NCBI GenBank assembly: GCA_020722945.1
Contig: DYJV01000010.1
Location: 1-46,671 of the forward strand
DNA: 46,671 bases
Direction: 5' to 3'
Origin: Candidatus Methylomirabilis sp.
Lineage (GTDB): Bacteria; DYJV01
The notes below the pieces were generated by a model. That model was not told the DNA's origin, did not search any database, and saw only the letters and a list, made by a program, of their open reading frames with translations. Position 1 is the first letter of the stretch, and each line of letters starts with the position of its first letter. This document shows, one piece after another, positions 37,956 to 44,414 of this stretch. Position numbers and translations under genes: made by a program.

Positions 37956-40900
37956 TTAGTTCATAAAAGTTCCCCATAGATTTTGCATCAGTGAGCTATC
38001 ACCTCCTGCACCTATCTCTACGGCCACAAAGTCACCAGGATGATCAACTTTGACCAATATATATGCTCCCTGATATCCCACAACTTTAGCCTGTAGATCA
38101 ATATTGAAATATTTATCGTTTGCTCCTTTTGTCCAGATCTCCACATTAGCACCATTGAAAGGTAGTCGAATGATAGAAGCCAACATTGGATTAGCTTCAG
38201 CTTCTTCATACTCATACTTGAGGGTATAAGCTTTGGCAAATCCGCGGCCTTTGAGATAAACCTCTTCCATCTCTGGAGTAAAACCACAGGCCTGTAATTT
38301 ATCTTTCAAATCTGCTGGAACATAGAAATACTGTTTATCCATCCAAGGACCATTGACCACCTGTCTTACATAATTACTTTGGGCTTCAGTTGCGGTCAGA
38401 ATTGTGGGGTCAATGGTATCAATTTCAGAGCCCAAAAGTGTCCCTTCACTTGCCATTGAGAACAATTCTTCGGCATGGTGATGACTCAACTCAAGCACCT
38501 CATCAGCCCTAGCTCCCAAAAATCGCAGACCGTTGGCTTCCATTGGTTTAATGTAATCAACCTCACCATCCACCACAAAAAGTCCGTTTGGATTAGCCAT
38601 TTTCATCATTCCGCTTTCATGATCATAACGCATAAATCGATTCTCCTCTTTAAACCATGGCGGTGACCAAGGCATAAAAACGATGTTTCGGTCAGTTACC
38701 CGGTGGGCTCCGGCTGAGGTAGCGGAATAACCGTGGCAATCATTACAAGATTTGGAACCCAAAGCCTTCTCAGCTGGCTTAATCCCATGGCTGTCGGAAA
38801 AATAGTGGGCGGCTATAAACAGAACCGGATGAGGATCAATCTCGCCTTCAGCCTTTAAAACCGTAGTCAAAGCTGCCTGCACTGCTTTCACATCTTCATC
38901 CCACCAGATATCAGGAAACATATCTCCTGTATGGTCAAAGATTACATAACCACTGTCTTTAAGCACCACCTTGCCAACATTGGGATTCTGTGCCCAAGTA
39001 GGATCATTAGGTGGAATCATGGCCATGTCCATGGGAGAAACAACTCCAAGCTGACCAGGTCGTTTGTAGGCTTTGACGATAGCATTCAATTCCCTGATGT
39101 AAAGAACTTTGGCACCGCCATAAGGTAGATCAGACATATTCGCATCAGGCTGGGGATTGACATCAACCCATGTCATGATCATTATGGGATTTCCGGTTAC
39201 TACTTGGGGATAACCATTGATCCCGTTAGCGTAGTAAAGTGGCGGATAATTCATGTTATCATATTTCTGATCATAGTTAAGTGGGACACCCATCTGCTTA
39301 TAGTTTTCATAGCTTACCTGTAAAAAATATTTCCAGAAATCAAATTTAAAGTTGGTTGGCATACCGTTCACCAGATGCCCGGGGTCGGCTTCCCCATCCA
39401 TATTAAAATAGTTAACCATTTGGGAAACAAAGTCAGCTGACTGTATTCCCTGTCCATTGGCATCGATGTGCTGGCTGACCATATTGAAATGAGGTATTCC
39501 GTAGCCTGGTGAAGTTCCGTAGACTGGCTGCAGGGCATAAGCAGGGGAAGGGAAAGCCATACCCTTGCCATCACCAAAAGCCCCGGCTACCTGATCGGCA
39601 AGGACATTATAGCCCATCAGGTTGTCAAAATTGGCATAGTAGCCCAATGTGTCATCAAATGTCCTAAAACGCCATGTTTTACGGTAAGGCTCGTGGCAAG
39701 CCTGGCAGGAAACGGTAGCCATATGACGACCTGTATTTTCGCCAAAAGCTTTTTCATGCTTAAGCACTGGGTTGGGGGCATTGGCATCCTCACCATGTAA
39801 GTGGCAACCTTCGCAACTTTTGGGTCTCGGATTGGCATCCAAGTCGTTGCGGACCATGTGGGCAGTATCCACTCCCTTGAGAAAGTTATGTTTGTCTTCA
39901 TTGCTCCCTGTAGTCCTCAGATGGCAGGTTCCACAGCCCATCTTCTGGCTCGACATATGGACATCATAGCCAATTGCTTCGGGGTCGTTGGTAAAGTTGA
40001 CATAGTTGCCGTTTTTGACCCAATCCGCTGGCATTCCCAGCATATAGGTTCGGCCGCGAGTCCATTCACTGTTGCCGTGATCCTTTGTCATCACATGGCA
40101 CTGACCGCAAACCTTAACCCACTTGGAACTGTTAACATCTTTCTGTCCACCGAATATTTCAGTCATTTGGATAGCCCCATTGCTATCAAGATCGCCGGTA
40201 TTGTAGTAGGCTTTAGGCTGCCATTCATCTCCATTACGATCAATCCTGATATAGGTTGCTGGAGAGCCATCGTGGTTGAAATCGAGTCCCATCAGCCCGG
40301 CAGTCGGCATCAAGTCAAAAAAACTTGGTAGCAGATTATGCAGCGTTGGTTTGACCATACCTTCAGGGATATTACCCTCCTGAATATCTTTGATTACCAT
40401 GGTAAGATCAATCTGGCCGGTAGCCTGATTAACATAGCGATAATCACCCTGCATGACCAAGCCCATGGCATACATAGCACCACTGTATTCTTCACCAACC
40501 CGGCCACTATAAGGAATACCTTCTCCCTCAATCACACCTGCCCGGATAAAATCACGAACTGATGCATCGCAACTGTCCCAGTTGGTATAAAATTTACCCG
40601 GCTCATAAGCCCTCAGGGCATAAGGAACCGGTAAAAACATGTCACTGCCCGGCATATTAAACTTTATCTGATAAGCATAAATGAAATCGTTGAACATCAT
40701 CCCCATGAGCATGTTCATGTCGCCATCCGGCGGCATCAGACCTTTATTCTTGAAATATTGAAGAAAGCCCATGAAGAACTGACCAAGTGCTGCCTGAGAA
40801 CCCTGCAGTCGCTGCATTTCGTCGGCCACACCGTTGGGGTTGGCACAGTAGGCTGCTTTCAACATTCCAGTGTTAGTATCCCATATTTTTGAGACATTTT

Positions 40901-42992: not shown

Positions 42993-44414
42993 TTAATATT
43001 CCAGATGTAAGGTCATGGTCAGTGAATTAATATGATCGACCCCCAGTTCATCTTCATAAAAATCATCTTTATAATGTTGATAAAGCAACTTCATCCAAGC
43101 ATGATCCTTAAAACGATATTTCAAAGAAGCCTGATAGCGTGTTGATGCCTCGTTTTCTATCAGGCTGTTAACATCCTCAGTTTTATGATAGAACCCAGCT
43201 CCCAGCTCCAACTTCTCCAGCAATTCTTGACGACAGTCGGCAAAATAGGAAGTGGACTCTCCTTCGTAAAAATCATCACGATCTTCCTGCCAGTAACTGT
43301 AACCGGTATCCAGATGGAAACCCTTCAGATGCAACCATTCGTCAACAGTCAATCCGATTGTGTATCGGTCGAAATTGGTATTATAGAGATTTTCATCATT
43401 ATCATGGGCAAGATCCCTCCTTGTGTAACGAACATAAGTCGTTAATCCCGGAGAACCTGGCAGAGGCTGACTGATGCGAAAATCATACTCCATATAGCCC
43501 TGCTCCCGCAAGAGATAGAGGCTGGTTAGTTTATTACTCAAAGCTTCATCGAGAGAATAGATATAATCAAAGAGGAAGTCGCTGTTAGCAGCAATTTTAT
43601 AGCGTCGATACACACTGGCATTAAATACCGTCCCGGTAATAGGACATGTTGTCTGGGCACTGATATCGAAAAATCTGGTATGATCGTTAATGAAAGCCAG
43701 ACGGCTGCGTGTCTGAATATTTTCTGTTGCCTGCCAAAATACCGATCCCTCAGTAGAGATTTCTTCGGAAAAAACTCCGTCGAGGTAGAACTCCATGTTT
43801 GACAGGGGATGAATAGACAGGTTGTAGCCGCCAACGCTGTCCTGGGCGATATTGGAATAATGCTGCACCAATCGTCCACCAAACACCTCGGCTTCAAAAC
43901 CATACCAATCAGGAAGCTCGTAATGGAGCTGTAAACCATCATAATGCACCGTCTCAGCACTATAGGCATACTGCCGGCCCAAACTAACATTCAAACCCGG
44001 AGACAGAAAATCTTTTTTCTCTATATAGGAATAGTAAATTTCAAAATCTTGGCGATTACCACCCCGACTGTCGGTATAATCTTGAAAAATTGAACCAGCG
44101 GAAGTCCCATCAAGATCCTTTAGATATCGACCCATGACTGAAACCATGATCCCGGATTTAGCCCAGTTAAAATCAGCAGCCAACAATTGGTTTAAATCCT
44201 GGTCGTGATTGTCATCGATAGCCAGACCATAAGTTGGATGATCTGACCATTGCACCCGATATTTGGTCGTGCTCCGCAAAGAGAGATCCATGTTTCCCAA
44301 TTCCATTGCCCAGCCCATGGTCACTTCAACCAGGCAGATGCTGACCACCAACCAAACTACTATCCCAGGTTGCCAGCGGCTCTTTTCCCGTTGCTGCCGT
44401 TTAATTTTTGTCAT
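42993..44414 (-). CDS. Outer-membrane beta-barrel porin of a porin-cytochrome conduit
   Basis: 473 residues. A long basic N-terminus and a signal peptide (about 1-37, ending MGWA) precede a barrel of many alternating strands rich in Tyr/Trp/Arg, such as RQYAYSAETVHYDGLQLHYEL and DTGYSYWQEDRDDFYEG. It ends in an aromatic C-terminus (LTMTLHLEY), the outer-membrane assembly signal. It has no heme motif. By position it is the OmbB/ExtB/MtrB-type sheath that holds the dodecaheme cytochrome. I use ATG 44414 with GGGGATA upstream; an adjacent TTG is possible. First gene of the operon. Confidence 0.85.
   Translation of the reverse strand: MTKIKRQQREKSRWQPGIVVWLVVSICLVEVTMGWAMELGNMDLSLRSTTKYRVQWSDHPTYGLAIDDNHDQDLNQLLAADFNWAKSGIMVSVMGRYLKDLDGTSAGSIFQDYTDSRGGNRQDFEIYYSYIEKKDFLSPGLNVSLGRQYAYSAETVHYDGLQLHYELPDWYGFEAEVFGGRLVQHYSNIAQDSVGGYNLSIHPLSNMEFYLDGVFSEEISTEGSVFWQATENIQTRSRLAFINDHTRFFDISAQTTCPITGTVFNASVYRRYKIAANSDFLFDYIYSLDEALSNKLTSLYLLREQGYMEYDFRISQPLPGSPGLTTYVRYTRRDLAHDNDENLYNTNFDRYTIGLTVDEWLHLKGFHLDTGYSYWQEDRDDFYEGESTSYFADCRQELLEKLELGAGFYHKTEDVNSLIENEASTRYQASLKYRFKDHAWMKLLYQHYKDDFYEDELGVDHINSLTMTLHLEY

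Follow-up and report, generated by a model that had tools for sequence, protein, structure and literature searches.

A predicted selenocysteine-containing octaheme cytochrome in a putative porin-cytochrome conduit operon of Candidatus Methylomirabilis

Contig DYJV01000010.1 of the Candidatus Methylomirabilis sp. assembly GCA_020722945.1 was analysed over 46,671 nucleotides, referred to here as the window. Its minus strand carries an operon of three genes that encode an outer-membrane porin, a 12-heme lipoprotein and a large exported cytochrome with eight hemes. The large cytochrome gene contains an in-frame TGA, and comparison with its homologs leaves us almost certain that this UGA encodes selenocysteine (Sec). 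The operon probably specifies a conduit across the outer membrane that ends in a Sec enzyme, the terminal reductase for an extracellular acceptor.

The in-frame UGA of the large cytochrome

The large cytochrome gene spans positions 37956..42014 of the minus strand and encodes 1352 residues when UGA132 is read through. The TGA at 41621-41619 follows directly after residue 131, and apart from it the frame is open over all 1352 codons. Gene calling with table 11 yields a 131-residue piece with one heme and a separate seven-heme piece of about 1214 residues. A scan of named genomes returned 32 loci related to the large cytochrome, 5 of them without coverage of the UGA site. Every close relative that covers the site has TGA there (20/20, 53-82% identity), and every distant relative has a Cys codon, TGT or TGC (7/7; by title three Bacteroidales and one each of Ignavibacteria, Prolixibacteraceae, Leptospiraceae and an uncultured bacterium). 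Together with the wider group described below, this UGA/Cys pattern assigns codon 132 (41619..41621, minus strand) to selenocysteine. Hemes 1 and 2 flank Sec132, which is part of a conserved motif, G-x-W-(Sec/Cys); in the window protein the site reads GAWUPPSYR. When the window protein was compared with 24 relatives, 5 of 428 conserved residues with a synonymous choice were invariant in their codon, and 4 of these 5 (Y136, R137, Q138 and A140) lie directly 3' of the UGA. A preliminary description of this DNA had reported an 8-heme cytochrome of about 1350 residues. Its heme count and length hold only if the UGA is an amino acid, and we regard the protein as real because the evidence says that the codon is read as one; what does not hold is that the gene is one ordinary open frame.

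The same codon recurs in a wider group. The phylum of Ca. Tharpella was sampled with 395 genomes, and in 87 of them a profile of the N-terminal domain, which comprises three hemes and the Sec or Cys, matched at E 1e-10. Some of the matched genomes, G057, G135 and G296 among them, are assembled into one or very few large contigs and may come from cultures. Most of the matched loci were aligned, giving 134 domain hits of which 117 are distinct by DNA. The alignment excludes short or weak rows of G129, G159, G198, G120, G068, G262, G176, G104, G317, G079, G177 (contig C4), G034 (C62) and G297 (C29), and some of the excluded rows also carry one TGA. At the Sec column the 117 distinct members comprise 71 with UGA, 24 with Cys, 19 with other residues (9 Ser, 3 Leu, 2 Gln and one each of Met, Ile, Phe, Gly and Ala) and 3 with gaps. 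All 71 UGA members have a single TGA in the domain, exactly at this column, and no domain TGA was found in the remaining members. Five Sec groups were set by motif: F1, the window type, with WUPPSYRQ; F2 with KWUPPSARQ and the like; F3 with KFUPPSFRQ; F4 with GGRWU; and F5 with WUPPATASSQ. Within the class of Ca. Tharpella, a Sec cytochrome, whole or partial, occurs in 16 of 22 genomes, and TGA is present in all 13 strong hits that cover the Sec site. In one genome of this class, a series of multiheme genes includes a Sec octaheme and, adjoining it, a Cys paralog whose fusion adds many further hemes (L072, 7966-14352).

Directly behind the UGA is a hairpin resembling the apical part of a selenocysteine insertion sequence (SECIS), at 41594..41607 of the minus strand, with the stem CCGCC / GGCGG and the loop AGUU; codon freezing and compensatory pairs support it. 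CCGCC-AGUU-GGCGG, in some with the loop AGGU, stands behind the UGA in 20 of 20 close-family rows. Once paralogs of the Tharpella class are added, both bases of the outer pair differ in 3 of 13 distinct rows, where G-C and U-A replace C-G. The covariation score of this pair is 0.164 compared with 0.033 in shuffles, and none of 500 shuffles reached 0.164, a score that rests on one pair and on shuffles that ignore kinship. The loop position reads AGNU in 71/71 UGA members and starts 16 nucleotides (56 members) or 22 nucleotides (15 members) after the UGA. Counted from the loop, complementary bases stand at stem pair 1 in all 71 members, at pairs 2 and 3 in 67 each, at pair 4 in 71 and at pair 5 in 69. 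Pair 4 is C-G in 67, A-U in 3 and G-C in 1, and pair 5 is C-G in 43, U-A in 20, G-C in 4, U-G in 2 and unpaired in 2. The misfits at pairs 2 and 3 belong to L107, L112, L115 and L117, for which by eye a pairing with a five-base loop is possible. Of the non-TGA members, 43 have a residue at the site, and only 2 of these form more than 3 pairs around an AGNU loop, hairpins with other loops not having been sought. A lower SECIS stem was considered and dropped; it gives strong single-sequence folds in L034, L027 and L032, but has no covariation support and a z of -0.58 in the window. Two members, L153 (G245) and L157 (G266), have the Ser codon TCA at the Sec column yet keep an 8-pair hairpin behind it, and look like recent losses of Sec.

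The host genome encodes the machinery for Sec insertion. Its selA, selB and tRNA-Sec all score over cut-off, its selD itself has an in-frame TGA, and the stretches that carry these genes have a host-like guanine-plus-cytosine (GC) content of 30-35%. Elsewhere, selA is present in 13/14 and 36/38 further genomes with UGA members and in 0/6 genomes of the distant Cys members. This co-occurrence was rejected as proof of Sec, as the split of 13/14 versus 0/6 is confounded with phylum; selA, which same-phylum genomes without the Sec codon carry too, is a necessary component that the host possesses and not an independent proof. The host also has two cytochrome c assembly proteins and other multiheme proteins. 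Among its other loci, contig C110 (L174, L175) encodes 8-heme proteins, one of them beside a polytopic membrane protein, a possible quinol-linked supplier of electrons.

Architecture, recurrence and origin of the operon

The three genes follow one another on the minus strand in the order porin (42993..44414, 473 residues), 12-heme lipoprotein (42076..42981, 301 residues) and large cytochrome, with intergenic gaps of 11 and 61 nucleotides, respectively; this order and the coordinates agree exactly with the preliminary description. The porin has no CXXCH motif and the large cytochrome has eight. Beyond the last gene is a stem resembling a Rho-independent terminator (37894..37934, minus strand), with 17 pairs and a T tail. 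It is the strongest of 6 comparable sites in the region, although the number of sites is no greater than in shuffles (6 versus a mean of 7.5).

The porin was identified from its translation, from its predicted barrel and from related loci, in which its homologs precede the 12-heme gene. Profile searches and structure prediction had been proposed for it. No Pfam or NCBIfam model, MtrB/PioB included, was reached at E 0.1, and membership of the MtrB/PioB family was rejected on this ground; the structure prediction gave a beta-barrel (AlphaFold2, predicted local distance difference test score (pLDDT) of 76) with 22 strands counted from the element list. Among the 50 Foldseek matches listed there are generic barrels only, with query template-modelling scores of 0.33-0.47. 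The 12-heme protein has 12 CXXCH motifs and a lipobox, LYGC, at residues 24-27; all 12 motifs and the lipobox Cys27 are invariant in 14 aligned sequences. Its N-terminal part resembles QrcA (53 bits, below the cut-off of 180) and the structures of cytochrome c7 and ActA. PF22113, which describes MtrC/MtrF-like domains II/IV with a cut-off of 30 bits, matches the large cytochrome at 38.6 bits and the 12-heme protein, barely over, at 31.9 bits. Among the matches, it alone connects the operon with known surface cytochromes at the level of a family.

The gene set recurs with its homologs. Upstream of the F1 cytochromes a porin homolog was found in 31/36 and a 12-heme homolog in 32/36, in the window's order and with similar spacing. 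The misses of L027 (porin only), L145 and L169 fall at contig ends, and in L094 and L150 neither partner was found within 1.5 and 2.2 kb upstream, respectively. In F5, 3/4 loci have a porin homolog and 4/4 a multiheme homolog, which in L138 and L142 is a 9-heme lipoprotein; the compact Sec octaheme of the F5 type has 742 residues. The full three-gene set is present in Ca. Tharpella aukensis (L018). The three genes are therefore likely to form a porin-cytochrome conduit, as had been described; the recurring gene order supports this part well, and the likeness to the Geobacter Omb-Oma-Omc systems is one of composition only. Beside the Sec conduit of L022 there is a second possible conduit (13560-18571), with a 669-residue 10-heme protein, a 683-residue heme-free protein and a DmsE-family decaheme cytochrome (243.9 bits, cut-off 192.2).

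The operon stands out from its surroundings as an island (37956..44417) of 45.1% GC in DNA of 32.8% GC. In a tree of 37 sequences, built by a quick method without bootstrap, the window protein falls among sequences of the Tharpella class in nested sets of 7, 8 and 12 rows that have Shimodaira-Hasegawa-like approximate likelihood ratio test values of 95, 100 and 100. The set of 12 consists of the window protein, 10 Tharpella-class rows and L019, which is titled Desulfuromonadaceae. Nesting and composition together point to lateral acquisition of the operon by the host, or, less likely, to a misassembly. A tRNA-Arg gene (ACG; 44878..44952, minus strand) has its 3' end towards the island and may mark a site of past integration; on the flanks, a direct repeat of its end was not recognised. 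Farther on, a protein that by eye resembles an AAA-ATPase/nuclease begins on the plus strand and leaves the window end (45400-46671).

Terminal reductase or electron wire

The large cytochrome is the most strongly conserved partner in most comparisons. Its identity to the homologs in L016, L022 and L018 is 82, 80 and 76%, whereas the porin reaches 55, 55 and 53% and the 12-heme protein 61, 60 and 59%. In L017 the Sec cytochrome has 78% identity and the porin 59%, and in L019 the 12-heme protein and the Sec cytochrome are equal at 73%. The cytochrome is thus conserved above the porin in 5/5 loci compared and above the 12-heme protein in 3/4; synonymous sites are saturated in these comparisons.

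Related octahemes occur in other settings. In F3, 7/9 Sec octahemes (L119, L120 and L122-L126) are fused at their C-terminus to a cytochrome b of the formate-dehydrogenase-gamma type, all over cut-off (120-137 bits versus 115.85), and no porin homolog was found near them. We read these fusions as octaheme modules that are fed directly by quinol. The two exceptions are L121, a cut-off piece with 302 residues after the UGA, and L166, which was placed in F3 by motif and is without cytochrome b. In its place, the C-terminal part of L166 has a divergent domain of the InlB B-repeat type. A compact Cys group (L130, L132, L133 and L135) adjoins FmdE and TauE genes in 4/4 loci, ArsR in 3/4 and a barrel gene in 2/4. 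Another Cys group of 12 members has ArsR near 4 and rhodanese near 2; rhodanese is also near 5/19 members with neither Sec nor Cys, and TauE near 2/11 F4 members. FmdE and TauE likewise adjoin the close relative L037, known from a piece without the Sec site. Scans of 11 F2, 9 F3 and 4 F5 members found no neighbours of this sulfur type.

The heme ligands were considered in an alignment of 11 compact octahemes. Outside the CXXCH motifs it has 4 invariant His residues and 2 that are nearly so, to be set against 8 hemes, a count by which one or two of the hemes could have a Sec/Cys ligand or be open; we take it as suggestive only, because structure prediction of the cytochrome failed. Heme ligation by Cys is known from TsdA, SoxAX and DsrJ. 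Profile searches of the PDB with the full cytochrome, the porin and the compact-octaheme alignment gave no match.

Conservation of the cytochrome, the cytochrome b fusions and the sulfur- or metalloid-type neighbours of some homologs favour an enzyme over a plain wire. We infer the assembly and orientation of the conduit, the direction of electron flow, the catalytic role of Sec and the substrate as follows. Electrons would pass from the quinol pool through the periplasm to the 12-heme lipoprotein inside the 22-strand barrel, and from there to the exported 8-heme cytochrome. The ribosome would read UGA132 as Sec by means of the SECIS-type hairpin and the host's SelA, SelB, tRNA-Sec and SelD. 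Sec132, most likely the catalytic site and situated beside a heme or ligating it, would then reduce the extracellular acceptor. By analogy with homologs, we lean, with rather less than even confidence, towards a sulfur or other chalcogen compound as the substrate in preference to a bare metal oxide. The preliminary description had predicted respiration with Fe(III), Mn(IV) or electrodes; the presence of Sec, the conservation of the cytochrome above the porin, the cytochrome b fusions and the sulfur-type genes beside some homologs speak instead for a terminal reductase that has a chemistry of its own. On a larger scale we tentatively suggest a widespread superfamily of Sec octaheme reductases in anaerobic sediment bacteria, unrecognised since gene callers stop at UGA. 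It may be built around a Sec/Cys-heme iron centre, with selenolate-heme catalysis where Sec is present, as a module mounted either on a cytochrome b or on a porin-multiheme wire, and the wired form could be the missing terminal reductase of Ca. Tharpellota, acting on extracellular sulfur or chalcogen compounds.

Several observations weigh against a Sec-terminated reductase, or against particular supports of it. The stem of the hairpin is invariant in the close family, and because it never varies it is beyond covariation testing there; the 42 nucleotides of the window folded alone are not stabler than shuffles (z -0.58), and the apparent lower stem has no covariation in the close family. Of the 114 members in which the Sec column holds a residue, 19 have neither Sec nor Cys; loss of this residue is thus possible. 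The selA gene is found in 32/33 same-phylum genomes without a UGA member and is absent from 3/52 Sec genomes, for which incomplete assemblies are a possible cause. The host copy is known from one assembled genome only. Sulfur-type neighbours are absent beside the window operon and from scans of 36 F1 members, which makes the sulfur reading of this operon an analogy. Lastly, the AlphaFold2 model of the cytochrome (residues 28-1190, 17 sequences) had a pLDDT of 37 and was discarded.

Two alternatives concern the integrity of the gene and the operon. An in-frame TGA with two separate table 11 open reading frames, in an island of foreign composition and in one genome, is what would be expected if the UGA were a true stop and the gene either broken or split into proteins of 131 and about 1214 residues. 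The same UGA in 20/20 relatives and 71 distinct members with Cys elsewhere, the frozen codons and hairpin, the otherwise open frame and the host's Sec machinery make this highly improbable. An assembly chimera, in which the operon of a Tharpella-like organism was misjoined into an AT-rich contig, would account for the GC of 45% versus 33%, for the nearest kin in Tharpella-class genomes and for the lack of the operon in the only other genome of the host phylum examined, and the assembly consists of 184 contigs with 5.8% contamination. AT-rich DNA on both sides would require two joins, however, and each gene is lower, both in GC overall and in GC at third positions, than in the five related loci with which it was compared; we judge a chimera improbable, and the question is without bearing on the nature of the operon itself.

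The other two alternatives accept the conduit and differ on what it does. It may be a generic conduit for extracellular electron transfer to minerals, electrodes or partner cells, with Sec as a heme ligand or a structural or redox-tuning residue. A porin, a dense-heme lipoprotein and a large exported cytochrome are the composition of known conduits, both cytochromes match PF22113, and 19 members do without Sec or Cys. Set against this are the higher conservation of the large cytochrome, the F3 fusions to cytochrome b with no porin homolog nearby, the TauE, FmdE, ArsR or rhodanese genes that adjoin other members, and the retention of a costly residue in 71 distinct members, which suggests specific chemistry. 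The MtrC/MtrF domain match, the lack of sulfur neighbours in F1 and the 7/9 cytochrome b fusions pull both ways, and we hold the generic conduit to be unlikely, if the least so of these alternatives. The conduit might instead run inward, oxidising sulfide, polysulfide or another extracellular donor, or taking up a partner's electrons. Nothing in the sequence fixes the direction, and Ca. Tharpella aukensis, one of the carriers, comes from hydrothermal sediment according to the available part of its description (PMC9213671). The F3 cytochrome b fusion fits quinol oxidation, though such modules can be reversible, and no sulfide-oxidising gene was noticed beside the window operon; an inward conduit seems to us about as improbable as a chimera.

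Comparison with known systems

The outward terminal reductase that we prefer has a precedent for Sec in ExtKL of the Geobacter ExtHIJKL cluster, a predicted Sec multiheme cytochrome encoded with a porin (PMC5877670, PMC1914089, as far as available). A Sec in a multiheme cytochrome has thus been proposed before. ExtKL is reported to have 5 hemes in its N-terminal part and a mass of 49.5 kDa, whereas the present cytochrome has its Sec between hemes 1 and 2 of 8. Membership of ExtKL (NF040886) was rejected, since neither the window protein (at E up to 0.1) nor any of 9 superfamily representatives (at E up to 0.001) matched the model. Octaheme tetrathionate reductase (TIGR04315) likewise has eight hemes and matches weakly over hemes 4-7, and was rejected because the window protein scores 23.3 bits and the relatives scanned reach no more than 50 bits, compared with a cut-off of 375. 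OmcA/MtrC (TIGR03507), with ten hemes as opposed to eight here, was rejected with no match at E 0.1. None of the three operon proteins reached the whole-protein models for OmcA/MtrC, ExtKL or MtrB/PioB in Pfam and NCBIfam at E 0.1.

A 2026 inventory of 119 prokaryotic selenoprotein families and subfamilies has as heme-related entries, in its accessible portion, ExtKL, the GSU2204 family and WP_331457571.1, a TIGR04315 member with Sec by its GenBank annotation; the present family is not named among the 119 entries in that portion (PMC13188914). A 2022 review, in the part available, places a Sec "cytochrome c family protein", WP_013164579.1, under Cytochrome_C554 (PMC9312934), and the inventory appears to carry the same protein as ExtKL (PMC13188914). 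As a heme protein it is of the same broad class, some of the present members are also matched by PF13435, and from what is accessible of these sources the two are possibly related. The comparison of our group with WP_331457571.1 and WP_013164579.1 draws on family models and descriptions. OetABI and an unnamed Seep-SRB1g conduit are likewise porin-cytochrome conduits, in sulfate-reducing Desulfobacterota, known here from the description in part of the source; the word selenocysteine is absent from that paper's text (PMC10553843). A description of the present Sec octahemes was not found in the open-licence literature among the matches listed.

For Ca. Tharpellota, the available text of the original study states that no terminal reductase was evident, proposes a protein of the HAO family speculatively and reports gene calling with Prodigal (PMC9213671). 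With Prodigal the Sec cytochrome gene would be expected to be split, and the Sec cytochrome conduit is a concrete candidate for the position left open. The same effect suggests an entire group of multiheme cytochromes that standard annotation cuts short, and that surveys counting the hemes of predicted proteins would miss or score as broken. A selenium-heme site in an electron-conducting protein would, if true, be new chemistry.

The closest parallels in composition are the Geobacter OmbB-OmaB-OmcB and ExtABCD/ExtEFG conduits, which likewise combine a porin with small and large exported multiheme cytochromes in one operon. The lipobox arrangement of OmaB and OmcB is the reverse of that in the present operon, where the lipobox is on the small and not the large cytochrome. 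The window operon further differs in its 12 and 8 hemes and in a large partner that is a predicted selenoprotein. On the evidence of its sequence, the operon is a known kind of machine, the porin-cytochrome conduit, in a new form that ends in a predicted selenoprotein.

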